Of a stretch of 64,000 nt of DNA, positions 21,082-43,420 are shown one piece after another. The notes below the pieces were generated by a model that was given only the letters and a program-made list of their open reading frames with translations, searched no databases and was not told the DNA's origin. Every line of letters starts with the position of its first letter. Positions within the stretch are counted from its first letter, which is position 1. The DNA is from Candidatus Bathyarchaeia archaeon (lineage in GTDB: Archaea > Thermoproteota > Bathyarchaeia > Bathyarchaeales > Bathycorpusculaceae), in NCBI GenBank assembly GCA_041447175.1, contig CP166960.1, positions 1,077,507 through 1,141,506 on the forward strand, given 5' to 3'. Both the position numbers and the translations under genes were made by a program.

Positions 21082-21431
21082 TCTTTGCCCCAATAATTTA
21101 TACAGTAGGACTTAAATTAACTTTCATGATTTAACCGCATTATTCTTGAAAATTAAATAAAATAGGAAAAACGAATTTTGTTGTTAGCGGCTTTGCATGT
21201 GAGTTCATTGTTTACTCAAGGGTTTTTGAGGTGCATACTTCCATTTCTATACACAGCCATAGCGGAATCCGCAGTAGCCAAGGATTAGGCCATCAATATA
21301 CTCTAAAGCCATTATGAAGAGGCAACTTACATCTCCGAATGCATAACCATAATATTGCGCCGAAGCTTGTTTAACGCTTGATTTCACGGATACATCTGTA
21401 TTCAAGGCATAGTGAAAGAATATAGTGACCT
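21082..21431. other. Region between the kelch gene and the distal end of CRISPR array 1
   Basis: AT-rich upstream region of the kelch gene. A minus-strand frame (21247-21438) begins inside the first CRISPR repeat and encodes a 63-residue hydrophobic peptide without a recognisable domain; it is not called. No further repeats were seen here. Confidence 0.4.
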
Positions 21432-21620
21432 CTTTCAATTCCCGTTACTTGGGATTATCCTTTGAAGCTGTGACACATAGGTATAGCAAAAGGTGTTTAA
21501 AAATGACTTTCAATTCCCGTTACTTGGGATTATCCTTTGAAGCAGAAAAAGAAGAACAACAGACCCTTTCAGTTTTTGACATCCTTTCAATTCCCGTTAC
21601 TTGGGATTATCCTTTGAAGC
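21432..21620 (-). CRISPR. CRISPR array 1, leader-distal part (3 repeats, 2 intact spacers)
   Basis: Three identical 37-base repeats at 21432, 21507 and 21584 (plus-strand form CTTTCAATTCCC...TTTGAAGC), with spacers of 38 and 40 bases. The leader is at the far right (28078-28213), so these are the oldest units. Directly after the third repeat comes a 42-base sequence that should be spacer three, but instead of a repeat it runs on into foreign sequence. The array resumes at 24928. Confidence 0.97.
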
Positions 21621-22140
21621 TGTTAAACAGCATTGACCCCCCGCCAGTCACAGTGCCCGTTAGATTTTCCATCGCAATATCCGCTGCCTGCTGAGCAGAC
21701 AACGTATACCACTGCCCCGAAACAGGATACACAGGCGTACCGACACTACAATTCTGCACAACATAATACGTCTGAGACGAGCCAAGTAGGGCAGAAACAA
21801 TATAGTTGTAGGGGTTGCTGGTCGTGTAGAAGCTGGGGTTCACGTTGTATTCCAGCCAGTTCTGCAGCGCCGTCTGATTCTCCACCAGCAAATCGATAAA
21901 CTCGCCGTAAACCGTAGAGTTCTGCGTTAACGCCAAAACCGAAGCCGAAAGCAATGTTTGGTTCTGCGCAAGCAAATCTACCTGCGTCTGCAAAACATCC
22001 GCTGCCTGCGCAACACCCTGCTGAGCTTCTTGAGGCGTAATAACGCCTGAAACAGTAGCTAAAGACAACATAACCATAATTGCTATGGAAACTACGTTGG
22101 CTTTGTTACTTTTCAAAGTTGAACTAATCTTGTTCGACAT
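21607..22140 (-). pseudogene. N-terminal half of a split secreted beta-helix protein
   Basis: Starts at the ATG at 22140, with GGAG about ten bases upstream. A membrane anchor or signal (VVSIAIMVMLSLATVSGVIT) is followed by a glutamine-rich helical region with repeated LLAQNQT/LLVENQT, then ENLTGTVTGGGSMLFNS. At that point the frame enters a CRISPR repeat and stops after FKG. The last coded stretch, TGTVTGGGSMLFNS, is encoded by the 42-base duplicated sequence. The rest of the protein is found at the other end of the inserted segment (23185-24927). Confidence 0.85.
21621..21662. repeat. Left copy of the 42-base spacer/protospacer
   Basis: Identical in all 42 positions to 24886-24927 (starts TGTTAAACAG, ends GTGCCCGTTA). 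On its left it abuts the CRISPR repeat ending GAAGC; on its right it continues into the beta-helix gene. Read in crRNA direction, this copy keeps the native upstream flank GGAAAATC. Confidence 0.97.
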
Positions 22141-22300
22141 CTTGTTTACACTCCAAATAATTTTAGGAAACCATGAAAAGGGCGTGACACACCCACCCCG
22201 CAAAACCACAGAATGAAAGCAACACAAAGAGAGAGAATACGTCTCATTCGTCTTAATCCACCAAGACTCAAAGCAGGCTAATACAACACTTTTTCGTGTA

Positions 22301-23188
22301 ATGTCAAATCTTGGTAAAAGCTTAAAAGATAACCTGTCAGATTTTACTTTTATGCTACAATCAATGCCACGCCCAAGTGTTCTTCTAAATTTTTCAAAGC
22401 GAATTATCCACAGACCACTTGAACAGTCTCAACTAAAACCAATCACACAATTTCTTTCAAAATATGTAGTAGGTAAATACGGTATTGAAATAGGCGGCCC
22501 AAGCAGAATCTTCCATCCCAACAACCAACTACCAATTTACCCATTCATAACATACCTTGACAACGTAAACTACTCTAATGTCACTAAATGGTCAATGGAT
22601 GCTAAAGATAACTGCCTCTTAGGTCGAAGAGTAGGATTATTCTATGAATTGGAAGCAACAAACCTGTCAACTCTAAAAGATGGGCAATATGACTATTTGT
22701 TATGTTCTCACATGATTGAACACACCGCTAACCCCATAAAGGCATTAATGGAGTTCAAAAGAGTAGTCAAACCAAACGGTTTACTTCTACTAATTGTGCC
22801 GCATAAAGAAGGCACTTTTGACCACAAACGACCAACCACCACCTTAACACATATGGCGAACGACTATAATCATAATATTGGCGAAGATGACCAAAGCCAT
22901 GTTCCAGAGATTATAGCGTTAAATGATCCTCCAGTAAAGAAATTAAACGACGATATTGTTAATAATTACAGGAGGCGGTGCCTTCATCAACATGTTTTTT
23001 CAACTGAAAGTTTTTTGGAATTAATTGACTATGTGGAATTGGCAATTTTAAGAGTGGCTACATGTTTGCCTGCAAACATAATTGTTGTTGCGCAAAACAA
23101 AAAGGGTAGTGAAAACTTTAGGTTCCTAAATGGAAAGAGTGAATGGAAAAAATATAGTCCATTCAAACTAGATCGGGCTAAAGATTAA
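22301..23188 (+). CDS. Class I SAM-dependent methyltransferase carried by the inserted segment
   Basis: A 295-residue protein. The SAM-binding motif I is KYGIEIGGPSRIF near residue 60; the post-motifs are YDYLLCSHMIEHTANPIKAL near 130 and VVKPNGLLLLIVPHKEG near 150. The layout resembles the Methyltransf_11 enzymes often found in glycan clusters. The substrate is unknown. It is AT-rich compared with the flanking beta-helix gene, lies between the two beta-helix halves and on the opposite strand, and would be the only intact gene of the inserted segment. Confidence 0.8.
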   Translation: MSNLGKSLKDNLSDFTFMLQSMPRPSVLLNFSKRIIHRPLEQSQLKPITQFLSKYVVGKYGIEIGGPSRIFHPNNQLPIYPFITYLDNVNYSNVTKWSMDAKDNCLLGRRVGLFYELEATNLSTLKDGQYDYLLCSHMIEHTANPIKALMEFKRVVKPNGLLLLIVPHKEGTFDHKRPTTTLTHMANDYNHNIGEDDQSHVPEIIALNDPPVKKLNDDIVNNYRRRCLHQHVFSTESFLELIDYVELAILRVATCLPANIIVVAQNKKGSENFRFLNGKSEWKKYSPFKLDRAKD

Positions 23189-24927
23189 TTGGTTGTACCT
23201 ATGTTATCTCCTTTGATGGTGTTAGCACCCGAAGTTGAAATATCGTATAATCCAGTGCTTCTAGTAACAATGTTGTTGTATATCATGTTGTTAGTTGCCT
23301 GATGCTTCAAGAATGCCATTAGCTCCACTGTAATCAATTCGATTAGCAAGTATGATGTTGTAGATTGCTGTGACTGCAGTATCATTTTCAATATTTATGC
23401 CTTGCCAGCCATTACTTATCATAGAGTTTCCAGTTACCGTGTTGTTTTGTCCTCTTAAATCTAAACCCACTCTCCCGTTTGAGTAGAAACTGTTGGAAGT
23501 TACAGTCCATGCACTGCCATATAAGCGGCAGCCACTGTAAAGGCTTTTAGATGTAGAGTAACCAGTTAATGTTCCATTATTGCTATACAGAATCGTAAGC
23601 CCTGCAGCGCAGTTTTCAGAGGAACCACCCGAAATTTCGGTGTTATTACTATGAATCACAAGCAAACCAGCGCTAGGAGTGTTTGTTTGATTGATAATTG
23701 TGTTGCCGCCGATCTTTGTATTATTACAGGTATCTATGGAAATGCCGTTTGATACAGTCATATTTATGGCGGAATTGCGAAAAATAGATAATCCATTGCA
23801 TCGAAGAGCTTCTATGCCTCTGTAGCAGTTTTCCATTGTATTATCAAGAATCTGCAAGTTACCGCCCCATTCAGTTATTGCAAATGCGCTAGTGCAGTTT
23901 CGCAAAGTATTTTCAGAAACAACCACGTTCCAACTGTACAGTTCTGGCCCTGGATTTGATAATTCTAAGCCGAAAGCGTTTCCGCGGTCATAGATGCCTC
24001 CAACTAACGTATTGCCAACTATTCTGCCACCGTTGATGTTTTCCATTTTCATCTGTGACCAACCAGAGTTTTCGCAATAGTTGTTTTCAAATAGAATATT
24101 GCGACTATATCCATCATACCAAGATACGTCGTTCCATTTGTCAGCTTCTATTCCATGCCCAAGGTATGCGTAGATGCAAGTGTTGTCTCTTGCTGTGGAG
24201 TTGTTGCAGCCTCCAAAAAATATGTAGTGAGTCTGTACGTCATGGATGTACATTTTTTCAACTAAGATACGGTTGCCATAGACGGCAAATACGCCGATGC
24301 CGCCAGAGTTTGTAAGTACGTCTATTGAGTGCTGTGTGTTGTTGTTTCCGTCTATTTCGCCGCCAGAAATGGTTATGTCGTTAAGAAAGTGCCCTGCAGC
24401 TAAACCATCTATGGAGATTGCTGCGGCGTTTTGGTTGTTTCCCACTTTTAAAATTGCGCCATCTGCTAATGTTAAGGTGCGGTTTGATGTTGCAATGGTT
24501 AAACTTCCATTTTCCTGATATAATCCAGGTGCAATGTAAACGTTGCCGTTCGCGATGGCGCTGTTAGCTGTGGATGTAAAATTTATTGATGTAAGTTCCA
24601 TGACTGGCTGCCCTGTACTGCCATTAATCGCCACATACGCAACCGTACCATTCTGCAAGGTGCTGGGCATAATCAGGTAACTAAAATCTCTCTGCCCACC
24701 AACGTAAAAGGGCATGCCCAACTGATAGTTTATCACGTAACCATTCTGCTCATCATACACGGTGCAATTTGCCAAAGTGCCAGGAGTGTAGGTTATGCCC
24801 GTTGCGCCTTTGCCGATGGTTACGCCTGTGCCTTCCAGAACCGTTAAATCGACCCCTACACCGTCAGCGCTAAAGTTGCCGCCACTGTTAAACAGCATTG
24901 ACCCCCCGCCAGTCACAGTGCCCGTTA
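23185..24927 (-). pseudogene. C-terminal half of the split beta-helix protein, with a frameshift near its end
   Basis: The frame runs from the 42-base duplicate (TGTVTGGGSMLFNS, joined to GGNFSADGVG) through about 530 residues of right-handed parallel beta-helix. The coils are marked by repeated N-rich turns such as NNTKIGGNTIINQTN and NNTVTGNSMISNG. Near 23291 the frame ends at ASGN, while another frame continues with NNMIYNNIVTRSTGLY to a stop at 23185, so one base appears to be lost. The present frame could start at a TTG inside the adjacent CRISPR repeat. Rejoined with the N-terminal half, the protein would be about 740 residues, secreted and membrane-anchored. Confidence 0.85.
24886..24927. 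repeat. Right copy of the 42-base spacer/protospacer
   Basis: Identical to 21621-21662. On its right it abuts a CRISPR repeat (24928); on its left it continues into the C-terminal half of the beta-helix gene. In crRNA direction it follows a normal repeat, so it could still receive a 5' handle, but no repeat follows it. Confidence 0.97.
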
Positions 24928-27900
24928 CTTTCAATTCCCGTTACTTGGGATTATCCTTTGAAGCATTAAGACCCCAAGCAACGCTCCAAGCAACCACACG
25001 AACTTTCAATTCCCGTTACTTGGGATTATCCTTTGAAGCCATACCATAAAAGTTAGGCAGCCAAGGATGAGCCACCCCACTTTCAATTCCCGTTACTTGG
25101 GATTATCCTTTGAAGCCGGATTATTTTGAGGTTGAGTCTGAACCTGTACAAGTCTTTCAATTCCCGTTACTTGGGATTATCCTTTGAAGCATGGTGGAAT
25201 AATTTAGATTATATTCCTGCTGAGCATCCTTTCAATTCCCGTTACTTGGGATTATCCTTTGAAGCGTCACCCTACGGGTTCGCTAAACAGGTGAATGGCA
25301 ATGCCTTTCAATTCCCGTTACTTGGGATTATCCTTTGAAGCACCGTTTGACGCTCAAATCTGGCGGTAGAGCCAGCACAACTTTCAATTCCCGTTACTTG
25401 GGATTATCCTTTGAAGCTTCGGCGGCTTGGTTGTCCGCGAGTTCTTGGATTTACCCCACTTTCAATTCCCGTTACTTGGGATTATCCTTTGAAGCTTCCT
25501 TTTTGTGTTATGCCTCACGCTCGTTCTCTGACTTCTTTCAATTCCCGTTACTTGGGATTATCCTTTGAAGCTGAGTTTTGCCCGTTGGAAAGACCTTGAT
25601 TCATGTAGTCTCTTTCAATTCCCGTTACTTGGGATTATCCTTTGAAGCTCATGCTAATTAAAAGGCGGGGGGTGCCTTTCTTGTCGGCTTTCAATTCCCG
25701 TTACTTGGGATTATCCTTTGAAGCCTGTTTGCAAACCACTGCCATTATATACCTTATCATAACTTTCAATTCCCGTTACTTGGGATTATCCTTTGAAGCA
25801 AAAATGGCTTCAGCTCCTGTTCAACTTCACTTTTGCCTTTCAATTCCCGTTACTTGGGATTATCCTTTGAAGCTCAACTTAGCCAGCCGCGTTATGCCCA
25901 GTCAGTTTACGGCGCTTTCAATTCCCGTTACTTGGGATTATCCTTTGAAGCGGGTTGGGTGATAACCCGCCAGAAAAGTTGCTGTTCAAACTTTCAATTC
26001 CCGTTACTTGGGATTATCCTTTGAAGCTTCCCGCGCTCAAATACAAGCCGTTGACGGGTACGCCTTCCACTTTCAATTCCCGTTACTTGGGATTATCCTT
26101 TGAAGCTTAGAAGTATACGTCGAAAACAGCGAAGTCGTTTTCAGCTTTCAATTCCCGTTACTTGGGATTATCCTTTGAAGCGTCACCATAGCAAGCAGCG
26201 ACAAACGCAGCCTCATCTACTTTCAATTCCCGTTACTTGGGATTATCCTTTGAAGCAGAGATTTGTTTGGTGGAAGGCGAGGAAGAAACCTATCTTTCAA
26301 TTCCCGTTACTTGGGATTATCCTTTGAAGCTACCCACCGCCAGCGGCACCGTCCCACCCGGACTATACTTGCTACTTTCAATTCCCGTTACTTGGGATTA
26401 TCCTTTGAAGCAGCGGCTGTATGCGATATTTTGACTCAGGCTATTTTGATTCCTTTCAATTCCCGTTACTTGGGATTATCCTTTGAAGCTGTTGATTTCA
26501 TTTTGATGCTTCGAGAAAACGGTATACGCTTTCAATTCCCGTTACTTGGGATTATCCTTTGAAGCTGAAAAAGATGTTTGCCCTAAACCACTGTTCTTCT
26601 ATCCCTTTCAATTCCCGTTACTTGGGATTATCCTTTGAAGCGGTGACGCTTAACATACGACAGCAAAGCCATGATATCCGCTTTCAATTCCCGTTACTTG
26701 GGATTATCCTTTGAAGCCCCAAAGGCTTCAACATCTACTTCAACCGCCCATATGACCTTTCAATTCCCGTTACTTGGGATTATCCTTTGAAGCCCTAAAT
26801 TACGAAGAAACGATTGAACCTCAGGAATAAAATCTTTCAATTCCCGTTACTTGGGATTATCCTTTGAAGCCGGCATTTACGGCAGAAATTTTGAACTGTA
26901 GATATACCATCTTTCAATTCCCGTTACTTGGGATTATCCTTTGAAGCGTGAACGTTTAGGTCAAAATTTTCGTACCCATTCGATCTTTCAATTCCCGTTA
27001 CTTGGGATTATCCTTTGAAGCCTGTCCACGTTAAGGTTTTCCTGCTTCGGAACCAACGTCTTTCAATTCCCGTTACTTGGGATTATCCTTTGAAGCAGAA
27101 GCCTGCTCCCGTGAATTGTCCCATAAACCGGACCTTTCAATTCCCGTTACTTGGGATTATCCTTTGAAGCCCCAGTAAGGTGCATGATACGCTAACATCA
27201 TCTTCTCGTTCTTTCAATTCCCGTTACTTGGGATTATCCTTTGAAGCCCAAAGCCCAATTTGCAAGCTTTGCAACAATGTTAAAGCCTTTCAATTCCCGT
27301 TACTTGGGATTATCCTTTGAAGCGATGTTGCCGAGCAAGGCGCAGACAAAACAGTTCTTACCTTTCAATTCCCGTTACTTGGGATTATCCTTTGAAGCGC
27401 TCAAGATGTCGCACGATTGCAGTATGTAGTTAATGGCTTTCAATTCCCGTTACTTGGGATTATCCTTTGAAGCGGCTTTATCAACTCAGAGTTTGGGGTT
27501 GGTGAATTTGTTCTTTCAATTCCCGTTACTTGGGATTATCCTTTGAAGCGACAGCGACTATGACGTTTCGGCTACTGCGTGGAATGACTTTCAATTCCCG
27601 TTACTTGGGATTATCCTTTGAAGCAAAGAAGCCAAAACTTCAAGCTGCTGCATTTCTTGTAAACTTTCAATTCCCGTTACTTGGGATTATCCTTTGAAGC
27701 AGTCACCATTTAACGTACATCGCCCACGGCTTAAACTTCTTTCAATTCCCGTTACTTGGGATTATCCTTTGAAGCTTTACGTTTCCCCTCTTTAAGTTCA
27801 ACACGGATTTGCTCTTTCAATTCCCGTTACTTGGGATTATCCTTTGAAGCGTCGCTGGATGTGTCAAGCTGCAACCCCTGAATAGTTAACTTTCAATTCC

Positions 27901-28077
27901 CGTTACTTGGGATTATCCTTTGAAGCAGAAGCGGTATAGCCGAAAACTTGTAGATGAAACTCAACCTTTCAATTCCCGTTACTTGGGATTATCCTTTGAA
28001 GCCACCAGAAAAAACTTATAAGTCACCTGTGAGTTACGTACTTTCAATTCCCGTTACTTGGGATTATCCTTTGAAGC
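24928..28077 (-). CRISPR. CRISPR array 1, main part (42 repeats, 41 spacers)
   Basis: 42 copies of the 37-base repeat, the first at 24928 and the last at 28041-28077, with spacers of about 37-44 bases. Read on the minus strand the repeat is GCTTCAAAGG...GGAATTGAAAG, so the crRNA handle would be ATTGAAAG, as in archaeal type I/III systems. The leader with its TATA-like element lies at the right, so the newest spacers are near 28000. With the three distal repeats the array had at least 45 repeats. I found no mismatched repeat in this part by eye. Confidence 0.98.
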
Positions 28078-28213
28078 CGAGCCGATTTTAGCCCTATTCG
28101 CAAATTAGAGGCAGATTTATTCATGATTCTGGGTATGTAGCCTCGATTATTACTGAAATGTCACTCACTTTATAAACATAATCGAATAAACTGCACTGTG
28201 CTGGTCGACCAGA
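28078..28213. promoter_or_regulatory. CRISPR leader 1 and divergent csa1 promoter
   Basis: It starts CGAGCC directly after the last repeat. A CTTTATAAAC element at 28168-28177 contains TTTATAAA, which reads the same on both strands and could serve transcription into the array (leftward) and into csa1 (rightward, start 28214). A stretch shared with leader 2 (TATAAACATAATCGAATAAA) covers this element. Between it and the csa1 ATG lies the palindrome at 28201-28212. Confidence 0.8.
28201..28212. promoter_or_regulatory. 12-bp perfect palindrome before csa1
   Basis: CTGGTCGACCAG, a perfect inverted repeat ending one base before the csa1 ATG and about 24 bases after the TATA-like element. Related sequences occur at the same place in leader 2 and near 48833. 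It is a likely operator for a regulator of the adaptation genes. No such regulator gene is identified in the window. Confidence 0.6.
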
Positions 28214-29101
28214 ATGTATTTTCTTTCTGACATCGAACAGAAGCAACTTCTCTACCAGCTTCTGCCAACCGCAAGAGAAGTAGGCGTAAGCAAAGAGCTA
28301 CGCGGCTGGAACTGGCACCAACCACCTCTAAAACCATACTTCGACAATGTCAGGTTGCCCATGTACCAAGTAAGCTCAAAATATTGCCCCACAAACCGAG
28401 ACGTATACCTGCGCAACGTGGAGAAAAAATATGGCGCCCCAAATGCGCGCATGGCTTTGGGCAAACTGTTCCACGGCATAGTAAGTGACTGCCTTCAGAG
28501 CTTTCGACAACGACAAAACATAACATTTGATGCTTGGTGGCAGAAAATCCGGTGGCAAGAAATCTCTGAAAAACCCGAAAACACTATTGACAAGTGTAGA
28601 CAGGTCTGGGATTTCGTGCAGAAAATGTGCGACGCCCAGCTGGCTGAGCGTTCTTGCAGCCAGCCTTACTCGACGGAAATGGACTTGATTAGCACTGCCG
28701 TTCCGTTTCTGGTTGAGCACAAGCTTTCGGGTGAGCTTCTTGGCTTAAGCGATATCCTAAGTGTGGATTGTTTTGATTATCTAAGAACCATCATGTTTGA
28801 CCTCAAAGTCACCAGCTTCAAGGAGAACTGGCACAGACTCTACTCCCTTGGCTATGCCCTTGTTTTTGAAAGCATCCACGAAGTACCGGTGGATATTTGC
28901 TGCACCGTCTACTTAAACGTTGAAAACGGCAAAATCAGTGTACAAAAAGACTTGTTTTTTGCTAACGATGAACTGCGGCAGTGGTGGCTTGAGGAACGAG
29001 ACAGGAAACTGGAGATTGTGGCGGAGAGAAGAGACCCGGGCAAGCCAGAATGTTCACAGTGTAAAGAGTACTGCCAATACTACAACATCTGCTATGGATA
29101 A
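28214..29101 (+). CDS. csa1: Csa1, Cas4-family CRISPR adaptation protein
   Basis: A 295-residue protein. It opens with the Csa1 signature region (VSKELRGWNWHQPPL near residue 26, SKYCPTNRDVYLRNVEKKYG near 55, cysteine 58). The nuclease core has GLSDILSVD and MFDLKVTS near residues 180-200. It ends with the cysteine set C280, C283, C287 and C293 (CSQCKEYCQYYNIC), which with C58 could hold an iron-sulphur cluster. Csa1 belongs with type I-A adaptation modules and is thought to help process new spacers. Its stop overlaps the cas1 start. Confidence 0.88.
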   Translation: MYFLSDIEQKQLLYQLLPTAREVGVSKELRGWNWHQPPLKPYFDNVRLPMYQVSSKYCPTNRDVYLRNVEKKYGAPNARMALGKLFHGIVSDCLQSFRQRQNITFDAWWQKIRWQEISEKPENTIDKCRQVWDFVQKMCDAQLAERSCSQPYSTEMDLISTAVPFLVEHKLSGELLGLSDILSVDCFDYLRTIMFDLKVTSFKENWHRLYSLGYALVFESIHEVPVDICCTVYLNVENGKISVQKDLFFANDELRQWWLEERDRKLEIVAERRDPGKPECSQCKEYCQYYNICYG

Positions 29102-30152
29102 AGCGGGGGTGGTTGTTTTGAATGTGTTTTTGGATGATTTTGGGATTTTCTTGGGACGCAAACGAAACCGCTTCAGTATTAAGAAAGGCAACGAAGTAAA
29201 AGAAATCGTGGCTGATGATGTTGACTCAATAATCTGCTGCTCCTCTGGCGTAGCTTTTTCTGCAAGCGCATTAGATTTAGCCACTGAAAACAACATCCAG
29301 GTGGTCTTTGCAAAGTATCGTGGGTGGCCTTACGCGGTTTTGATGCCAGCATCGTTAACTGGCTCAGTCAAAGCGAGACGGGAACAGTTTCTGGCTTATA
29401 ATGATGAGCGAAGCGTAGTTCTTGCCAAAAAGTTCATCACTGGGAAACTGGTGAATCAAGCGAATTTTTTGAAGTTGATGGCTAAGAATAGGAGGCAGAC
29501 CAGCCCTAAATTGGCTGAAAAACTGTATGAGTCAGCCAAACACATTGACGACGCCAACGAGCGAATCAACAGAGAGCAGGGGCGTAACATTGACGAAAAG
29601 CGTCAGCAAATCATGAATTTAGAGGCAGAAGCAGCACGATACTACTGGGACTGCGTACGGCAGATTTTGCCTGCTGAACTGGAATTTACAGGCCGAATCA
29701 CCCGAGGCGCCACCGACCCGTTTAACGCGATGCTAAATTTTGGGTATCAGACGGTTCTGTTTCCTGAAGTTTGGAAAGCCGTCAGCTACGCGGGCTTGGA
29801 TTTTTATGCGGGATATTTACATGCTGACCGCTCTGGGAAGCCATCATTGGTTTTGGATATGATGGAGGAGTTTCGCCAGCAACTCGTAGACCGAACACTA
29901 ATTGGGCTAATCACTAAGAATGTCATAAAACCTGACGAGATTATTGCTATAGAATCAGTTGAACAAGGGCGGGTTTTACGGAAAGAAGTCATTAAAGTCA
30001 TTTTAGACGCCCTCCAAGAGCGCTTAGACAGTGAAGTCATGTTTAATGGTCAGAAAGGGTCGATGAAAAGCTTCATTCACCTGCAGCCTCGGTGTATGGT
30101 TCGTTTCTTGCTCAAGGAAGCCGAGTATGTGCCTTTCTGTTTGGGGTGGTGA
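29094..30152 (+). CDS. cas1: Cas1 CRISPR integrase
   Basis: 352 residues from the ATG at 29094, which overlaps the end of csa1 by eight bases; a TTG after GGGGGTGG (near 29112) is an alternative start. The beta-rich N-terminal domain is followed by the helical catalytic domain with the metal ligands E177 (NLEAEAARYYW), H243 (YLHADRSGKP) and D255 (VLDMMEEFR). With Cas2 it inserts new spacers at the leader end. The reading frame stays open upstream inside csa1, but that extension is not coding. Confidence 0.95.
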   Translation: MDKAGVVVLNVFLDDFGIFLGRKRNRFSIKKGNEVKEIVADDVDSIICCSSGVAFSASALDLATENNIQVVFAKYRGWPYAVLMPASLTGSVKARREQFLAYNDERSVVLAKKFITGKLVNQANFLKLMAKNRRQTSPKLAEKLYESAKHIDDANERINREQGRNIDEKRQQIMNLEAEAARYYWDCVRQILPAELEFTGRITRGATDPFNAMLNFGYQTVLFPEVWKAVSYAGLDFYAGYLHADRSGKPSLVLDMMEEFRQQLVDRTLIGLITKNVIKPDEIIAIESVEQGRVLRKEVIKVILDALQERLDSEVMFNGQKGSMKSFIHLQPRCMVRFLLKEAEYVPFCLGW

Positions 30153-30158
30153 GCCCCA

Positions 30159-30449
30159 TTGCGTTATGTGGTGATTTATGATGTTTCCGACGACAACTTG
30201 CGAACGCTTGTGGCTGAGACGCTTAAGGACTATGGGATGCAGCGGATTCAGTACAGCGGCTTTATGGGCGACCTCCGACGTGACCAACTCAACAGCCTTT
30301 TGGTGGATTTGAAGAATCTGATTAAGGATTTGGTGGAGAACGTACAGCTGTTTCCCATGTGTGACAGCTGCCTAAAGGGTAAGAAGATGGTGGGTAAACC
30401 CAAAAAGTACGAGTTCAAAGAAGGCAAAGACAAAATTGCGTACTTTTAA
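30159..30449 (+). CDS. cas2: Cas2
   Basis: 96 residues starting MRYVVIYDVSDDNLRTLVAE, the ferredoxin-like fold start of Cas2 with the conserved aspartate, followed by DYGMQRIQYSGFMGDL. The length is typical. It has a TTG start with GGGGTGGTGAG upstream inside the end of cas1. It forms the structural core of the Cas1-Cas2 integration complex. Confidence 0.94.
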   Translation: MRYVVIYDVSDDNLRTLVAETLKDYGMQRIQYSGFMGDLRRDQLNSLLVDLKNLIKDLVENVQLFPMCDSCLKGKKMVGKPKKYEFKEGKDKIAYF

Positions 30450-30496
30450 GCACAACATTTTTGTATGCAAACGATATCTATTGTACACGGTGATGT

Positions 30497-30820
30497 GTGT
30501 TGACGCTTAAACCATTAGCCGTACGCGTCCCCGCCGAATTAGAAGAGGAAATTTCGGAAATCATAAAAAAAGAAAAATTAGACAAAGCAACAGTCGTCCG
30601 AAATCTCCTTGAAGCAGGCATCACTGAGTGGAGAAAACAAACCGCCTTGGAACTCTTAGGTACAGGGAAAGCCACGTTTGCCCAAGCCGCTGATATCGCG
30701 AAGCTTTCTCTTTGGGAATTTGCCGATTTAGTGAAGCAGTGCAATGTTGAATGGGTCAGGTTCGAACCAGAAGAAGTTGAGAAAGACTTTAAGGTAGCCT
30801 CGGCGGCGAAACGTAATTGA
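30497..30820 (+). CDS. Antitoxin: ribbon-helix-helix plus UPF0175-like domain
   Basis: 107 residues. The N-terminus (LAVRVPAELEEEISEIIKKE, then ATVVRNLLEAG) is a ribbon-helix-helix DNA-binding segment. The second half (LLGTGKATFAQAADIAKLSL, then WEFADLVKQ) matches UPF0175-type antitoxins. It ends in a four-base overlap (TTGA) with the PIN toxin gene, the usual antitoxin-toxin coupling. It probably represses its own operon and neutralises the toxin. It sits between cas2 and cas4. Confidence 0.8.
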   Translation: MLTLKPLAVRVPAELEEEISEIIKKEKLDKATVVRNLLEAGITEWRKQTALELLGTGKATFAQAADIAKLSLWEFADLVKQCNVEWVRFEPEEVEKDFKVASAAKRN

Positions 30821-31329
30821 AACCGTTAGTTTTCAATTCCACCCCCTTGATATACCTGTCTAAAGCTGGATTAAGCGGGATTATTGAAAGTCTGCAGGAG
30901 GAAAAGTTGACTTCTCCGCTGGTTAAAGTTGAAGTTGTGGATAAAGGCAAACAAAAAGGTGCTCCAGACGCTATTGCTTTGGAGAAACTGTTTGAAAACG
31001 GCGTTTTTAAACTTTGCAATCCCAAAGACAAGCTGTTCCTTTCACGGTTGTCCAGGACGCGGGGGCTTCATGCTGCGGACGCGGAGGTTTTAGCTCTTGC
31101 CAAGGAACACGCGGGGCTGGCGGTTATTGATGATGAGGTGGCAAGAAAAACCGCTAAAGTTTACAAAATCAGTTACGTGGGCACGCCGTATGTTTTGGCA
31201 AGGGCAGTTTCAGAAAAGGCCCTGTCAAAAGAGCAGGCTAAGGAGGCGGTTAAGGACATGGTTTCTTCGGGTTGGCGCTGTAACGTAGAAACCTACGCCA
31301 AGATAATGGAGTTAATAGACAAAATATAA
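30817..31329 (+). CDS. PIN-domain toxin (VapC/DUF3368-like)
   Basis: 170 residues. The PIN-type start FNSTPLIYLSKAGL is followed by an acidic centre: LHAADAEVLALAKE near residue 95 and AVIDDEVARKTAK near 110, which supply the metal-binding acids of this RNase family. The DUF3368 branch commonly has NTSPLI in place of the first aspartate, as here. It would cleave RNA (often tRNA or rRNA) when free of the antitoxin. It has a TTG start overlapping the antitoxin stop. Confidence 0.8.
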   Translation: MKPLVFNSTPLIYLSKAGLSGIIESLQEEKLTSPLVKVEVVDKGKQKGAPDAIALEKLFENGVFKLCNPKDKLFLSRLSRTRGLHAADAEVLALAKEHAGLAVIDDEVARKTAKVYKISYVGTPYVLARAVSEKALSKEQAKEAVKDMVSSGWRCNVETYAKIMELIDKI

Positions 31330-31340
31330 GGGCTGCAGTC

Positions 31341-32000
31341 TTGGGCAAGAAAAATGATTATTGGCTGAAACGTCAACAGAAACTACGTGTTTCCGATGTG
31401 GCAGAGTCTTTTATCTCCGTTACCGATGTCAAGCACTATATTTACTGTCCAAGGCTAATCTACTTTGACCACGTACTGCACGCGAAGCCTGTTTTTGGTT
31501 CACAGCAGGAAGAGGGCAAAGAGTCTCATGAGGAGCAGGTGACTAAGGAGCTGAGGCGCAAAGACGCCGTTTACTATTCGTCGGAGTTTGTGGGTGCCCA
31601 GAAACTACTCTTTGCATCCTTAAGCTCGGATGCGCTTGGCTTGCAGGGCAACGTTGACCTCATAATCCACACAACCCGCGACGAATTCATACCCGTCGAG
31701 TACAAGAACATGAACAGCGATGGCGGCAGAGTCTGCATGGACCACAAATACCAACTTGTCGCCTACGCCCTACTCATAGGAGAAACCTACAGCACAACCG
31801 TCAAAAGCGGCATCGTAAACTACCTCCCCGAAACCCAGATCCTGCAGTTCGAAATAACGCCCACCATGAAAACCCACGTCAAACGCGTCCTAGGACACAT
31901 AAAAAGAATAATCCAAACCGAAGAACTGCCACCAATACGAGTAGCGAGTTATAAATGCCAAGGCGGATGCGGACACAAACAAACATGCCAAACAAAATAG
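31341..32000 (+). CDS. cas4: Cas4 exonuclease (RecB-like)
   Basis: 219 residues. An early cysteine in YIYCPRLIYFDHVLHAKP is followed by QGNVDLIIH (metal aspartate), FIPVEYKNMNSDGG with the E-x-K pair, and HKYQLVAYALLIGE (the Q motif). The C-terminal cysteines CQGGCGHKQTC complete the iron-sulphur site. Cas4 trims prespacers and helps choose those with a correct PAM. It has a TTG start 11 bases after the toxin gene. Confidence 0.93.
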   Translation: MGKKNDYWLKRQQKLRVSDVAESFISVTDVKHYIYCPRLIYFDHVLHAKPVFGSQQEEGKESHEEQVTKELRRKDAVYYSSEFVGAQKLLFASLSSDALGLQGNVDLIIHTTRDEFIPVEYKNMNSDGGRVCMDHKYQLVAYALLIGETYSTTVKSGIVNYLPETQILQFEITPTMKTHVKRVLGHIKRIIQTEELPPIRVASYKCQGGCGHKQTCQTK

Positions 32001-32039
32001 AAAGCAAAATAATTAAAGACCTAAAGATAATGCAATATT

Positions 32040-33743
32040 ATGATGGCTATCACTCCTGAAATGGGAAAATCTCACATAGTAAAAACTATTGTTCAATATG
32101 CCAGATATTTAAAGGATGAGCGATTTCTCGAATTCATTCCTGAGACTGATAGGCAAGAGGCTAGGTCATACTTACAGAAGTTGGATGAACCGTTGTTAAT
32201 TAGAAACATGCACCAACCAAAGAATTGTCCAAGAACGGAATTCAGCCCTCAAATATACATGCATGTTTTCGCGAAGCCAGAACCAAGCGACAGATTGATT
32301 TCTATAGCAGTTGAAAGTTTGGTTAAAGAATTTTTTGATTATTTGGAGCGTGCCTTCTTTGTGATAATACGGCAAGAAGAAGGGCATGAGATAATTCTTG
32401 AAAGCTTTGAGAAATTAAATTATGATATGTTATTTTGGAACTTCTTGATAAGCCAATACTCTGATGACAACCTAACTTACCGGTGGTCGTTAGTTAAAGC
32501 GCTCTACAATCTGAAGCCTTATTTTGACCCGTTTAAAATAAAGAACAGCATATTGAAAAATAAAATTCCATTGGAAACTCCGGAAAGTCCCTCTTTATTT
32601 AATGATAATTCTATAAGAAACTGTCTTTTTTGTGGACGAGAAATAGTTGATGATAAAAGCGTTCATAAAGTGATGGGCGGATTTGCAAGTTTTGCCTCAC
32701 AAAAGCCTCAATCTGATATTAAAACCCAGAACGCGATAGTTTGCTCAATTTGCCTATTCGCTTCGTGCGTCTCACTTATCAGGACCTCAAATCCACAAGG
32801 CTTAGGTTATGCCAAAAACATCGTCTTAGTAGCTGAAAGCGGTAAAGAACAGTACGAGTCTGTTTTCAATAGGCTAATCGGAATATCTGTGGGCTCTTTC
32901 TTCACTATGAAAAACGCTGAAACAAGCATCGACAAATATGGTGAGACAACTGTAACTCATTTAGTGGCATCTACCGCACCCATTGAACTTTTGCAGGATC
33001 AGCACGTCAATTTAATTTCAGGTGCCTCTGAAAATCCATTAGACAAACGAAAGATTATCGCCATTAAATCTTTCGAAGAGTTAATAGGCTTTAGAAAAAT
33101 GTACAAACCATCTGATGAAAGCTGCTTCAGAAAAATTCATTATGATATCTTACGAGGAAACTTTTTTAGCATTTTTGGGCATCTTGCAGGTCTTTCAAAT
33201 AGAAAAGAACTAATAGATAATGGGATATATCGCTTGGTTAGGTATGGAGTGATTGAATTGGACGATGCAAGGATTGTGTTTGGCTCAGCTTTACTTATAG
33301 ATGCTTTTTTACCAAAGTCATGGAAAAACGCAGCCGACGATGCAAAAACAGATACACGTAAAGTAGCATACTACTTGGATCAGCCTGAGGAAGTTTTATA
33401 CAGACTAAGAAAGATCAGCGATGAGACAACAAGCATAAACAAAACTTTCTCTAACGAGGCATCTTACAAGCTTTTGAAAGAATTATTGCAGGCTATATAC
33501 GAAGAAGAACATTATGGTGCATTTCAAGAAAAAATAAAACAAAACGACTTAGGCCAAGAATATATGCGTCTTTCATTAGATGATGTTCTTAAGGTGTATC
33601 TGTACATCAGAGAATACTTGCTTAAGAGATACAAGGATCAAGATGAAAACAAAATGAATAAGACGTATTCAGATTTTATGGCAAAAATCAAATATGCACT
33701 AGTCGCTCGAAGACCTGAATTAGTGGAAACAGGTGGCAAATAA
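32040..33743 (+). CDS. Putative CRISPR effector large subunit (Cas8/Cas10d-like)
   Basis: A 567-residue AT-rich gene that heads the effector operon. A central zinc-finger-like pair, CLFCGRE near residue 198 and CSICLFASC near 240, recalls the zinc ribbon seen in several Cas8 and Cas10d large subunits. The last 120 residues are charged and helical, which could act as a fused small-subunit domain. No HD motif and no GGDD are visible. The assignment rests mainly on position: it precedes Cas7, Cas5, Cas3'' and Cas3'. The family is not recognised with certainty. Its end contains the AGGTGG ribosome site of the next gene. Confidence 0.6.
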   Translation: MMAITPEMGKSHIVKTIVQYARYLKDERFLEFIPETDRQEARSYLQKLDEPLLIRNMHQPKNCPRTEFSPQIYMHVFAKPEPSDRLISIAVESLVKEFFDYLERAFFVIIRQEEGHEIILESFEKLNYDMLFWNFLISQYSDDNLTYRWSLVKALYNLKPYFDPFKIKNSILKNKIPLETPESPSLFNDNSIRNCLFCGREIVDDKSVHKVMGGFASFASQKPQSDIKTQNAIVCSICLFASCVSLIRTSNPQGLGYAKNIVLVAESGKEQYESVFNRLIGISVGSFFTMKNAETSIDKYGETTVTHLVASTAPIELLQDQHVNLISGASENPLDKRKIIAIKSFEELIGFRKMYKPSDESCFRKIHYDILRGNFFSIFGHLAGLSNRKELIDNGIYRLVRYGVIELDDARIVFGSALLIDAFLPKSWKNAADDAKTDTRKVAYYLDQPEEVLYRLRKISDETTSINKTFSNEASYKLLKELLQAIYEEEHYGAFQEKIKQNDLGQEYMRLSLDDVLKVYLYIREYLLKRYKDQDENKMNKTYSDFMAKIKYALVARRPELVETGGK

Positions 33744-33744
33744 G

Positions 33745-34809
33745 ATGTCTGACGTTTTTAGAAATGCAAACAAAAACCTTGTCCACATGGACATCTACGC
33801 CGTTGTGGAAGCAACTCAAGAGTTATATTTTGGCAATGTTAAGGATCTGAATATAAACCGAGTTGAACTGATCTCAGTTCCAAAGGATGATGGAACAGTA
33901 GTTCAAAAACCATATATGAGCCCTACAAAAATGAGAGGCGTAGCTAGAAGAGCCCTTCTCTGGGAACTAGTTCGATTGGGCGACCAAAAGGTTTTGAGTT
34001 GTGGGATACCCGCAACATGTGGGAACTGTGATGTATGTCGGCTGTATGGTGCCTTGGTTACAACACAAAAGGGAACCAAATCTAAGGCAACAGAATCAAA
34101 TTCTCAAGGAACTGAGGAAGAAAGCCTCGCTGGAAGCATTGCGAGCAGAGTCATCCAAGCAGGTGGTGTTGCCATACAAGAGCTTACGCCCGCAATTAAA
34201 CAAAGACTCAGTTCTCCCTGTTATGTTGTTAATGGGAAAATAGGTCAATACAATGTGGAAGAGATCAAGAAAATGCTTCAAGACAGAGGTGTCACTGGAG
34301 ACGCACTGAATAGGCTTTCGCAACCCATGCCTTATGAAAAAGAGTATGTTACAGGGCTCTTCCCGATATACTGGCACGCCTATTATCTTGAGACTTCCAA
34401 GAATGACGAATCCAAGATGTCAGAACCACAGATGGTGGCTTTCAGTTTCATAGAGACGTGGAAAAGAATAGGTGCAGGGCACCCAAAGGGTGCAGAAATC
34501 AAAGAAGCAGAAATCCAGGGCAAACCGCAGCCGTTGATTGTTGTAGACATCTATCACAAACCGCTTGGCAAAAGGCCAATCATTAGTGTTAGTGAATCAA
34601 ATGAAAAAACCGCCATAGAAACGTTCGTACGGAAAGCAATGATAGTCAATGGTAAAACAAATCCAGAAGAGCATATAACCATTTCCGAGAACGAAACCAC
34701 GGTTACACTGTTTGAACGTTTCATCGGCGATGCAGCAGAAGATTTCCTCAGAAAGCTTGCAAGCGGATTGGGCACACCCTCAAAATTAATATCGCCTCCA
34801 AAAAAGTGA
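33745..34809 (+). CDS. Cas7-family backbone protein, Csc2-like
   Basis: About 354 residues from the ATG at 33745. A RAMP-like first strand is followed by PYMSPTKMRGVARRALLWEL, then TCGNCDVCRLYGAL, a CxxCxxC cluster typical of Csc2 (type I-D) and some type III Cas7 proteins. A hydrophilic insert (residues about 115-135) and SRVIQAGGVAIQELTPAIK follow. It would polymerise along the crRNA. The match to Csc2 is by eye and incomplete, so type I-D membership is only suggested. Confidence 0.65.
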   Translation: MSDVFRNANKNLVHMDIYAVVEATQELYFGNVKDLNINRVELISVPKDDGTVVQKPYMSPTKMRGVARRALLWELVRLGDQKVLSCGIPATCGNCDVCRLYGALVTTQKGTKSKATESNSQGTEEESLAGSIASRVIQAGGVAIQELTPAIKQRLSSPCYVVNGKIGQYNVEEIKKMLQDRGVTGDALNRLSQPMPYEKEYVTGLFPIYWHAYYLETSKNDESKMSEPQMVAFSFIETWKRIGAGHPKGAEIKEAEIQGKPQPLIVVDIYHKPLGKRPIISVSESNEKTAIETFVRKAMIVNGKTNPEEHITISENETTVTLFERFIGDAAEDFLRKLASGLGTPSKLISPPKK

Positions 34810-35819
34810 TGCAGTTGTTTTTGAAACGACTGGAAATCACTCCAACATCCGCTCTTTCGTTCAGGAAATTGCCCATGTCTCACAAGGCGATTTCTAGTTA
34901 CAGTTTTATACCGCCCACTGTCCTGTCGGGATTTCTCTACAGGTTGATTAGGCTGTCTCGAGGCGAGATGATACCGATTCCTAAAATGTTCAAAAATGAT
35001 AAACCAATTGCCGCTGAATATTTTATTATAGAAAACTACCTGACGAGTCCTGAGACAAAAGGGGTATTTTCTCTTGGCGCGTATCCTGATATCTATGCAA
35101 ACTTTACAAGTTTCAGAATGGGTTATCAGGATATCTCCTTAGGCATAACGTTTGCAAGCGATCTAATGCCCTTTAGAAAGAAAAGAGAAGATATTATATC
35201 ACTCTTAGAACAGAATTCCAGCAAATTTAAAGATTACAAGCAGGTTAAAGAGAAAATCGAAAGAGCTCATAATGACTATCGTTATTTCAAGACTGTAGAG
35301 AACATAATCTCATATTACGCGAGCGAATTAAACTTAAACGAACGGCTGATTCCTGACCATGCCCGAGTGAGTAAGAGTGGGAAAGTCAAATCAGGGACCA
35401 CTTATGATACGAAGATAAGGCGTGCTCCTCTTGACTGGGAATTTACAGTAACAGACAAATATTCGGCTTATTTGGTGTCTGAGAACAAAGAGCGTCTAGC
35501 CATCTTTGATTGCCTTCAAAACTACGGGTACAAAATTGGAAAAGAAGGATTTGCATTCGTTTCACAAGTTTTTGAGACACAAGACCTAACTGAGAAGAAT
35601 GGAAAAGTTAAGTCAAGCGTAATAGTACCATTGGATTCGGAAATGTATTATCCTAACAAAATTAAGTTTGACCTGCTTTATTTTTTTGATGGACAATCAT
35701 TTTCCAAAGGTATGTTTGCCCGCGAAGGTTGCGAAGTAGAGGGAGATTTTTTTGCAACTACGGATAATCGAGTAATTCTTCCAAGGGGAACTCTGACAAA
35801 GCTAAGGTGTATATCTTGA
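34809..35819 (+). CDS. Cas5-like protein
   Basis: About 336 residues; the ATG overlaps the stop of the Cas7 gene. The N-terminal segment SSYSFIPPTVLSGFLYRLIR matches the Cas5 first-strand and loop pattern (S-x-PP-x-x-x-G). The middle is long and charged, and the tail has TTDNRVILPRGTLTKLRC. Cas5 caps the 5' handle of the crRNA. It is longer than most Cas5 proteins, which fits an unusual subtype. The GTG one codon earlier is an alternative start. Confidence 0.65.
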   Translation: MQLFLKRLEITPTSALSFRKLPMSHKAISSYSFIPPTVLSGFLYRLIRLSRGEMIPIPKMFKNDKPIAAEYFIIENYLTSPETKGVFSLGAYPDIYANFTSFRMGYQDISLGITFASDLMPFRKKREDIISLLEQNSSKFKDYKQVKEKIERAHNDYRYFKTVENIISYYASELNLNERLIPDHARVSKSGKVKSGTTYDTKIRRAPLDWEFTVTDKYSAYLVSENKERLAIFDCLQNYGYKIGKEGFAFVSQVFETQDLTEKNGKVKSSVIVPLDSEMYYPNKIKFDLLYFFDGQSFSKGMFAREGCEVEGDFFATTDNRVILPRGTLTKLRCIS

Positions 35820-36583
35820 GCACGATGAACGGCATTGCAAAGGTCTTTAAAGAAAAAAGCGTAATGAAGTTTGTTGATATTGTAAGCCATAATGAAAATC
35901 TCAGAAAAATCTCCGAGTCCATATGTGAAGAGTTTGTAGGTAATAGGCAGCTATTGATTAAGGCTGCTGCAATTCATGATTTGTGGAAAAGTGCGACGAT
36001 TAACCCGGATGCCTTGTTTGTGAAGAGACCGTTATTCAAAGGGCATAGTTCCAAGTTTCCAGCAAGTTTGGTCAGTAAAGAATTTGACGATATTGAGTTC
36101 AATAAATCTGTTAGAGAAAAACACTTCGACGACTATTATATTCTAAATCTTGTGCGTCTTCATCATTCTGGTTTCAACACATACTCACTTTATAGAAATG
36201 TCGATTTTATTTTTGAAAACTTTGAAAAAGACCATTGGAAAATAATTGAGTCAATAAATGCCTTTATCAAAGATTGGTATGCACTAATGACTGCTGATTG
36301 GATAGACAGCGCAATTGTAGGTGCAGTCCTTAATGCAGAGGACTTAGAGTTTTATGTGCCCTCGGAAATTTCTTTGGGGCGAAAAGATGTGACCGAATTC
36401 AATGTCCTCCCAGAAAATTTCCTCAAAACAGATGTAACTCTTTCTTATACATATGTGGAGATACCGACCACTGAAGTAACAGAAATTATTAAAAATTCAA
36501 GAAAACGTAACGGTCTGAACAAGGAATTTCTTTCAAGATTAGAAAATGGTTCAAGGGAAAAGGTGCGTTTACATGCAACTTGA
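35816..36583 (+). CDS. cas3'': Cas3'' HD nuclease
   Basis: About 255 residues. HD-domain ligands are visible: AAAIHDLW (H57, D58 counted from the earliest start), FKGH (H80), VRLHHSG (H119, H120) and MTADWIDS (D164, D167). It would cut the displaced DNA strand with metal ions. AAGGTG lies about six bases before a TTG at 35816 that overlaps the Cas5 stop; the ATG at 35825 is an alternative. A stand-alone HD protein next to a separate helicase is the type I-A arrangement. Confidence 0.85.
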   Translation: MSTMNGIAKVFKEKSVMKFVDIVSHNENLRKISESICEEFVGNRQLLIKAAAIHDLWKSATINPDALFVKRPLFKGHSSKFPASLVSKEFDDIEFNKSVREKHFDDYYILNLVRLHHSGFNTYSLYRNVDFIFENFEKDHWKIIESINAFIKDWYALMTADWIDSAIVGAVLNAEDLEFYVPSEISLGRKDVTEFNVLPENFLKTDVTLSYTYVEIPTTEVTEIIKNSRKRNGLNKEFLSRLENGSREKVRLHAT

Positions 36584-38693
36584 TTGCGATTCTGTATATA
36601 AAGAAATATGTGGACAGGAATTCATTCCATATAAGCATCAACGAGAAGTTTGGACACAGATATCAGAAAATAGACCTGGCTTTTGTTTGCAATCTGGAAC
36701 TGGGTCTGGAAAAACCGAAGCAGTTATGCTTCCGGCGTTAGCTTTTGATAAACGACTTATCATGGTATACCCTACCAGAAGTCTCGTTGACGACCAAATT
36801 GAAAGAGCAAAAAGATATATTAGAAAAATGCTAACAGCAAAGATGGCTATTAGAAGAACGCTAATTGTAGATGTTGGCGGGGTTCAAGATGCTTACAAAT
36901 ATAGCGTTTTTGACGAAAAATCTGTGAGGATTATCCTCGATCAGATTAGGTTTTGGGTGTCAACCAAAAACTTTAAGGAAATTCTTGTTAGTGAAAATAA
37001 CACTGGAGAAAGCAGCGAACATTTTGGTAAGAATGCAGATATGCAAACAGTAGAGAGAAGACTTAAAGAATTAACATCCAATCGAAAAGGCTTTGAACTG
37101 GTTTTTTCCGTAGGCCCAAAAACAACGATAGATATAACAGATATTGAAGATGGACAATTCTTAGTCCTAAAAACGCGCAAACATTACTACGGTGGGGATG
37201 TAATTCTGACAACTCTAGATAAATTTATTTATAGATTTTTTGGATACGGAGAAAGAAAATGGAACCTTCTATATCCGTATAGGTTCTTGCTAAACCCTAA
37301 GAAGTCAATTATAGCCTTCGATGAGGCTCATGTTTACGATGAAGTTGCGTATACAAACTTTGTTCGCCTTATATCTTCACTGATAGCAAATCCAAAAATA
37401 ACTGTTGCCTTAATGTCTGCTACTTTACCGAATGAGTTTACTGACTTTTTTAAATCAAAATTCGGATTTGAGTTAGTTAAAGGAGAGGACTACAAGGGTG
37501 AAAAGACCTATGAAATACACAATATTGAGCCTACCGTTAGAAACGAGAAGATTCTGGAAATAATCACTCAAAATTTTAATAAAAAAACGATAGTTGTCCG
37601 AAACACAGTTGCGAATGCATTCAGAATCTATTCCTCACTCGCACAACCTTCGGATGACAAAGAAGAATACCATAATTTTAAGGGTGTTCCTGTTTTCTTT
37701 TATCATGGCAGGTTATTTGATTTTGTGAAGTCAAGTCGGTACAAGAAACTGAAGAAAATTGATAGCGCAGGCGAACCGTACATTCTGATCACAACACACG
37801 CTATAGAGGTTGGTTGCGACTTGAGTTCCGACATCATGGTGACAGATTTCTGCAATCCGCAACAGTTAATTCAAAGATCAGGTAGATGTGCTAGAAAAAA
37901 AGGCACCTGTGGAGTTTTACACGTAATAGGGAGTGAGTTGTTAAAGGAAGAGGCATATCTGAAAGAGGATCTTATAGATTATCAACATTTCATTGAAATA
38001 TTAAATGACAATAACGGCAAGTCTTTGCCAGAAGAGAAGATAAGAAATGAAATTATAAAACATCGACTTGCTAAGGATGAAATTACGGACGCCCTTTTTA
38101 GCTTGATGTATTCCTATGTATACAATTTTGATAGAACCAAAAAAACTTTACATGAAAGTGGAATTTTAGTGACTCGTTCATGGGAACCTTCTGTTAGTAT
38201 GGTCTTACTGAAAAAGGATGCTGATTTGAAAAGAATCCACGAGATTGTAAGCGAAAGAAGAAAGAATGTCGAGGAATTACTCGATTTCTTGTTAGAACAA
38301 AATTGGAGTTATTCTGTAAATCCAATAAAAATTTCGTTGGAATCATTATGCAAGAATGAAGGAGGCGGTGAAGCATATGACTTAAAGAATTTACAACAAG
38401 ACACCATAGTAATAGGAGTGGATGATTCCAGAACAATTAACGAGGAAAAGGGTTATGTTAAAGGCAACCTGAATCCATATTTGAACGAAATTTACGTCTT
38501 TTACAAACCACATGAACCGCTAAACAGAAACCCATATGGATTTGGATTAGTAACTTTACCCAAAATTTTTAATCTGAAAATTGCAGGTGTCAAAAAACGT
38601 GTTCTAATAAAGAAGCAACTTATGCCCGATGATTACAAAAATTGGACAGGAGACGTAAAAGTGGATTATATTGATATATCTGCCGTCCCTTAG
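36573..38693 (+). CDS. cas3': Cas3' DEAD/DEAH helicase
   Basis: About 706 residues. Walker A QSGTGSGKTEA near residue 42, YPTRSLVDDQ (Ia), IIAFDEAHVYDE (DEAH), ALMSATLP (III) and TTHAIEVGCDLSSD, then QLIQRSGRCARKKG (V-VI). It unwinds target DNA for the HD nuclease encoded just upstream, with which it overlaps by 11 bases. The ATG at 36573 has AGGTG seven bases upstream, so the nine codons before it are excluded. It is the last gene of the AT-rich effector operon. Confidence 0.92.
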   Translation: MQLDCDSVYKEICGQEFIPYKHQREVWTQISENRPGFCLQSGTGSGKTEAVMLPALAFDKRLIMVYPTRSLVDDQIERAKRYIRKMLTAKMAIRRTLIVDVGGVQDAYKYSVFDEKSVRIILDQIRFWVSTKNFKEILVSENNTGESSEHFGKNADMQTVERRLKELTSNRKGFELVFSVGPKTTIDITDIEDGQFLVLKTRKHYYGGDVILTTLDKFIYRFFGYGERKWNLLYPYRFLLNPKKSIIAFDEAHVYDEVAYTNFVRLISSLIANPKITVALMSATLPNEFTDFFKSKFGFELVKGEDYKGEKTYEIHNIEPTVRNEKILEIITQNFNKKTIVVRNTVANAFRIYSSLAQPSDDKEEYHNFKGVPVFFYHGRLFDFVKSSRYKKLKKIDSAGEPYILITTHAIEVGCDLSSDIMVTDFCNPQQLIQRSGRCARKKGTCGVLHVIGSELLKEEAYLKEDLIDYQHFIEILNDNNGKSLPEEKIRNEIIKHRLAKDEITDALFSLMYSYVYNFDRTKKTLHESGILVTRSWEPSVSMVLLKKDADLKRIHEIVSERRKNVEELLDFLLEQNWSYSVNPIKISLESLCKNEGGGEAYDLKNLQQDTIVIGVDDSRTINEEKGYVKGNLNPYLNEIYVFYKPHEPLNRNPYGFGLVTLPKIFNLKIAGVKKRVLIKKQLMPDDYKNWTGDVKVDYIDISAVP

Positions 38694-38762
38694 AGAGATG
38701 TTTTTGCAAATTCTCACCTTTCTGATGTTATTGAGTGCAATTGATTAAAGAATTCAAAGGCT

Positions 38763-38880
38763 TCAGGGTTTTAACATAAGTTTTGTTTGTCCGTATGGTG
38801 CTGTTTTGTTTCCGCCTATGTTGGCGTATTGTGCATAGTGTGTGTATATGCGTTGTTTTGTTTGGGTTGTTTAGTTGTTT
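38763..38880 (-). pseudogene. cas6 3'-end remnant A
   Basis: Minus-strand frame reading YAQYANIGGNKTAPYGQTKL and then a stop at 38763. This matches the C-terminal glycine-rich loop of the intact Cas6 at 43421-44275 (YAEYANVGGNKTAAYGQTKL). Upstream homology fades after about 30-40 codons. It lies directly after the Cas3' gene, where a cas6 would be expected. Confidence 0.82.
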
Positions 38881-38974
38881 GGTCTTGTATGCTCTGTTAG
38901 TTAAAGGTTGAAGGTAAGCAGAGTAGTGAGCATCAAATCACAAACTTTTTTAAAATCTGGGTGAATTCATTTTT

Positions 38975-40270: not shown

Positions 40271-40308
40271 CCAGCGATTAGACTCTGAAAGGGTTCGCCT
40301 CAGAGACA

Positions 40309-40440
40309 GACTCTTGTTTGTCTGTATGCTGCTGTTTTGTTTCCGCCTATGTTGGCGTGTTGGGCAGAGTGTGGGATCAGGTGGGTGGTTTTGTTGCAGG
40401 GTTTTCTTTGTCTTTTTTGGCTGGGAGTTATGGCGGAGGC
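40309..40440 (-). pseudogene. cas6 3'-end remnant B
   Basis: Minus-strand sequence reading HANIGGNKTAAYRQT and, in a neighbouring frame, KDKEN, both matching parts of the intact Cas6 tail (DKENAWNKITN, then YANVGGNKTAAYGQT). Frames are broken. About 55 of 60 bases match remnant A over its best stretch, so A and B are closer to each other than either is to the intact gene. Confidence 0.78.
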
Positions 40441-40497
40441 ATACTTTCAGGGTTTTGCGTGAAGTTTAATTGATTGCTTAGGAATTTATTGGTTGTT

Positions 40498-43416: not shown

Positions 43417-43420
43417 GCAG

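Follow-up and report, generated by a model that had tools for sequence, protein, structure and literature searches.

CRISPR array 1 of the Candidatus Bathyarchaeia genome studied here is interrupted at a single spacer by a 3.3-kb insert, and the 42 bases of that spacer stand at both edges of the insert. The arrangement is best explained by integration of a mobile element through homology between the spacer and its protospacer, the element being either a minicircle or a larger element that has since been reduced. Judged from the sequence, this reading has a probability of roughly two in three; integration is likely, though unproven. The genome is one contig of 2,733,033 bp. The window, which is the whole 64,000-nucleotide stretch that was analyzed, covers positions 1,077,507-1,141,506 of this contig and places the insertion site at 1.099-1.102 Mb. 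All coordinates below are window positions unless given in Mb (Table 1).

The interrupted array

The repeat of array 1 is CTTTCAATTCCCGTTACTTGGGATTATCCTTTGAAGC, which reads ...GGGAATTGAAAG on the minus strand, and each of its 45 copies is exact. The gaps between repeats measure 37-44 nt with one exception at 21621-24927, which is 3,307 nt long and opens and closes with the same 42 bases. The left copy abuts a repeat on its left and the right copy abuts a repeat on its right; the insert is bounded by two full copies of the spacer, with a repeat on the outer side only. A length of 42 nt falls inside the range of array 1 spacers, among which another of 42 and one of 44 are also present. The edge identity becomes 43 bases if the C at 21620/24885 is included, an extension expected by chance in one case out of four. 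Because the exact 42-mer sits precisely at both edges, a chance match is excluded. A sequence-only reading of this DNA had claimed that the array is broken exactly at one spacer and that the same 42 bases, each abutting a repeat, close the insert on both sides. The map of 45 repeats with its single long gap bears out the former, and the comparison of the edges bears out the latter.

None of the other spacers of arrays 1 and 2 matches the element. Protospacers for those spacers were sought to learn the PAM, and none was found. The left copy is flanked by 5'-GAAAATC beside the protospacer, in the crRNA sense.

Table 1. Features of array 1, the inserted element, and the adjoining cas locus (window positions).
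Feature	Position	Strand	Remarks
CRISPR array 1	21432..28077	(-)	45 copies of the same 37-nt repeat, with 44 spacer positions between them; read leftward, as judged from the common leader
Repeat adjoining the insertion on the left	21584..21620	(-)	
Left copy of the 42-bp spacer/protospacer	21621..21662		followed on the right by the element's own gene context
Beta-helix gene, N-terminal part	21621..22140	(-)	~173 codons, hydrophobic N-terminal segment
Intergenic region between the divergent genes	22141..22300		160 bp
Class I SAM-dependent methyltransferase	22301..23188	(+)	295 aa, Methyltransf_11/23
Beta-helix gene, C-terminal part	23185..24885	(-)	first frame ends at 23291; reading continues in the next frame until the stop (23185-23187)
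Right copy of the 42-bp spacer	24886..24927		a repeat follows on the right
Repeat adjoining the insertion on the right	24928..24964	(-)	presumed source of the 5' handle in the crRNA of the interrupted spacer
Array 1 leader	28078..28200	(-)	homologous to the array 2 leader (50464-50590) and to the leader beside the G061 array
cas locus, first part	28214..44275 (whole locus)		Cas4, Cas1, Cas2, (UPF0175/DUF3368 pair), Cas4, Cas8b-like
cas locus, rest			Cas7b, Cas5b, 258-aa ORF, Cas3 helicase, further genes, Cas6 (minus strand)

Array direction, neighboring repeats, and the cas locus

The common leader lies on the right of array 1, as do its counterparts at array 2 and at the orthologous G061 array, so array 1 is read leftward. 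Of its 44 spacers, only two at the leader-distal end are older than the interrupted one, which ranks third in age. Array 2 has 21 repeats (48916-50463), and its repeat differs from that of array 1 by two bases. One of the array 2 repeats, at 49442-49478, starts TCTTCAATT, not CTTTCAATT, and the rest are identical. A lone degenerate CRISPR repeat, CTTTCAATTCCCAGTCTTGGGATTAACCATTGAAGC, is found at 19363-19398, ~2 kb past the leader-distal end of array 1, where it sits between tRNA-Arg and a kelch-repeat gene. Comparable solitary repeats are present in the family genome G016 (L034).

In the sister genome G061, the orthologous array beside the cas genes is uninterrupted and shares only repeat-level similarity with array 1. 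The same type of interruption was found in none of nine other arrays of the family. The distance from tRNA-Arg to the array is 2.4 kb here (18995-21431) versus ~30 kb in G061 (G061:C3:29502-59856), which suggests a variable island next to tRNA-Arg.

By its gene content, the host CRISPR-Cas system is type I-B-like, with Cas8b, Cas7b, Cas5b, Cas3, and Cas6 all found. The Cas8b match is weak (6e-13, C-terminal part), and the Cas3 helicase is nearest to Cas3d. The 258-aa ORF preceding this helicase has no match. The UPF0175/DUF3368 (PIN-like) pair is antitoxin-toxin-like and occupies 30497-31329, inside the cas operon, with cas2 on one side and the second cas4 on the other.

Anatomy of the inserted element

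As a circle, the insert is 3,265 bp long and carries two genes. The minus-strand half ORFs 22140->21621 and 24885->23291 join on this circle in one frame of 704 codons, in agreement with the earlier observation that the halves of a beta-helix gene, at opposite ends of the insert, rejoin in frame upon circularization. The start codon and hydrophobic N-terminus are found in the left half only, and the beta-helix domain is found in the right half only. The 42 bases are coding sequence inside the rejoined gene, whose continuous frame indicates that the spacer sequence is native to the circularized insert.

The right half matches the Pfam families Beta_helix and NosD and, weakly, a phage tail-spike family. 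PHROG matches of the element are to a tail spike and a phage methyltransferase. A sequence comparison of the beta-helix half with solved structures gave no match. Near 23293 the reading frame of the beta-helix gene is broken, and the next frame continues beta-helix-like sequence up to a stop whose bases partly coincide with those of the methyltransferase stop, the two together reading TTAA. The break is one frameshift, which may be either decay or a base-calling error. Tetranucleotide composition and codon usage of the element resemble those of host genes in the window. The intergenic 160 bp are without strong inverted repeats or iterons, and an Rfam search of the element returned nothing.

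An integrase, a transposase, and a replication gene were sought among the ORFs of the element (two genes), and none was found; the element also lacks terminal inverted repeats. It was not classed as an integrase-borne prophage or ICE, as it encodes no site-specific recombinase, nor as a transposon, IS, or casposon, as it has no transposase or solo Cas1 with terminal inverted repeats. Nor was it classed as an autonomous plasmid or virus, with no replication initiator and only two genes.

Relatives of the element

The sequence-only reading had called for a search of other genomes and viromes for the rejoined beta-helix gene together with the methyltransferase. Neither a free copy nor a relative of the element was found in IMG/VR, phages, plasmids, or 91 family genomes, and genome contigs likewise held no copy. 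Searches of viral contigs, phages, plasmids, genome contigs, and the 91 family genomes gave no copy of the beta-helix protein, and no homologue spanning the joint, which would confirm the rejoined gene as native, was found. The methyltransferase alone was also searched in 398 genomes of the phylum. It has distant relatives only, in three family genomes and a huge phage, with closest figures of 38% in G031 and 35% in the 735-kb phage. The G031 gene is isolated between host genes, so the methyltransferase does not reveal the source of the element. That the element stems from a Bathyarchaeia virus or plasmid is a fair guess and nothing firmer.

Assembly background and alternative explanations

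The genome under study appears to be MAG Bathy6-F28_MillB, a single contig from a pulp-mill anaerobic digester (PMC11697101, Table 1). The organism makes up 0.5-0.9% of the community (PMC11697101). The mill metagenomes were assembled with metaSPAdes, MEGAHIT, and IDBA-UD and, with PacBio subreads, by hybrid metaSPAdes (PMC11556013). In the Mill B hybrid assembly as submitted, the largest contig measures 1,990,587 bp, and the MAGs were curated further (PMC11556013). As the MAG (2.73 Mb) is longer than the largest Mill B contig (1.99 Mb), at least one later join or curation step would have taken place.

The sequence-only reading had named a chimeric assembly as the main alternative. An ordinary 42-nt spacer would then lie in the array, and a co-occurring 3,265-bp circle would have been threaded in at the common 42 bases during assembly or curation, yielding the identical sequence. 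The parts have 42-43 bp in common, sufficient to merge at k = 21 or 33, and both the low abundance of the organism and the curation and joining of the MAG favor such an error. The k-mers of a plain array (42-nt spacer between repeats) were compared with those of a free circle, and 11 were common at k = 33, one at k = 43, and none at k of 44 or more. The default final k of metaSPAdes is 55. The array and the circle would therefore not touch in the final graph, making a mis-join unlikely; it would require small-k assembly or a manual join at the 42 bases, which lowers the probability of an artifact without removing it. Moreover, the assembly was hybrid with long reads, the insertion site is not near 0.742 or 1.991 Mb, where a single join of the 1,990,587-bp contig to the remainder would be expected, and a chimera still requires a circle of exactly that size. 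The chimera is thus weakened by the k-mers and the hybrid PacBio data, not eliminated, and is rather unlikely.

Among readings that accept the junctions, a larger virus or plasmid may have entered by the same crossover and later undergone an internal deletion near the methyltransferase 3' end. This variant, which overlaps the best explanation, is quite possible, at somewhat less than even odds. It would account for the absence of replication and structural genes apart from the spike-like protein, for the frameshifted beta-helix C-terminus that ends within the methyltransferase stop, and for the PHROG matches to phage proteins. The methyltransferase appears complete, however, the overlapping stops may equally be a natural tail-to-tail junction, and no relative with another gene order was found. 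Direct repeats around the insert would also be left by site-specific insertion at a 42-bp core or by a transposon that duplicates a 42-bp target, but the 42-bp repeat corresponds exactly to one spacer while also belonging to the coding sequence of the element, in frame, and is therefore not a target duplication. With neither a recombinase nor terminal inverted repeats in the element, such an insertion is highly improbable. Still harder to credit is the uptake by Cas1-Cas2 of a 3.3-kb fragment as an oversized spacer. The insert does lie between two complete repeats, but this route requires linear DNA with terminal redundancy of exact spacer length, and the site is leader-distal, whereas new spacers normally enter beside the leader.

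Proposed mechanism and its consequences

The arrangement has the form that one crossover of a spacer with its protospacer on a circle would produce. In the preferred reading, integration through spacer-protospacer homology, the spacer would have been captured long ago from a mobile element, probably virus-like and carrying a beta-helix spike gene. It would then have been the sole homology by which a circular form of the same element later entered the chromosome. One crossover inside the 42 bp would place the whole circle between two repeats, duplicate the 42 bp, and split the beta-helix gene. The DNA was presumably circular at entry, and host homologous recombination is the probable agent, perhaps aided by Cas3 breaks at the target. 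The sequence-only reading had likewise made the spacer the crossover site for integrating the same element. That part is the best fit to the geometry, while the circular replicon of 3,265 bp that went with it is unsupported; a stand-alone replicon of this size is doubtful because it has no replication gene, and a larger element that shrank by deletion once integrated would fit equally well.

After integration, the pre-crRNA would extend into the element and have the same sense as the beta-helix gene. Of the two 42-bp copies, the right one should keep its upstream repeat and 5' handle, with the next processing site 3.3 kb away, and its crRNA would probably be harmed. The left copy would have lost its upstream repeat. 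The two oldest spacers would be severed from the leader by the insert. With the guide from the hit spacer harmed and these two cut off, an element entering in this way would disarm the memory of itself.

A bolder version is that Cas3 breaks the circle at the protospacer, that the array spacer is the only template, and that repair inserts the target into its own memory. This is improbable, and if true, the element would gain a chromosomal home while the guide against it is damaged, and CRISPR arrays would offer programmable attachment sites, set by the sequences stored in them.

Should the junctions prove real, the array would be a natural case, in an archaeon, of an element that entered the chromosome through a spacer derived from it. 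Immune memory would then be shown to provide landing sites in nature and not only in laboratory experiments. This would account for one way in which arrays become broken or disarmed. It would also provide a search signature for long-read genomes, namely one spacer duplicated around an insert.

Comparison with known systems

Recombination between a spacer and its phage target is known in staphylococci (Varble et al. 2019, cited in PMC8616872 and PMC10434264). As the citing papers present it, the spacer likewise provides the homology for recombination with the protospacer of the invader. The staphylococcal case, in the same accounts, concerns bacteria, experimental phages, and transduction, whereas here the array is a natural archaeal one of type I-B-like character and the element would be fixed in the chromosome. 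The earlier proposal that immune memory acts as homology fits the present array, but the principle is not new, having been published for staphylococci according to PMC8616872.

Integration of prophages into CRISPR loci is described for Streptococcus pyogenes (Varble et al. 2021, a title listed in PMC10434264). To judge from that title, a mobile element there likewise interrupts a CRISPR locus and can disturb immunity. Those insertions are reportedly integrase-driven and site-specific. The present element, by contrast, encodes no integrase and sits in a spacer.

Mobile elements within archaeal arrays are said to be very rare, the exception being an IS in a matching spacer under selection (PMC4390879). 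In that case, Sulfolobus solfataricus under selection with a plasmid acquired ISC1359 in the spacer that matched (PMC4390879). The cases are alike in that an archaeal array is hit in a spacer matching the element and the crRNA is expected to be spoiled. ISC1359 is a transposon unrelated to the spacer, whereas the DNA inserted in the present array is what the spacer targets.

Single-crossover (Campbell, pop-in) integration of plasmids is used in archaea, for example in the Haloferax method (PMC12814878). It likewise involves a circle, one crossover, and homology duplicated at both edges, but here no more than 42 bp of homology are involved, and these derive from immune memory. In Haloferax, type I-B targeting stimulates recombination in a Cas3-dependent manner (PMC12814878). 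The principle is already known from bacteria, and what the present array would add, provided that the assembly is correct, is an archaeal example from nature.
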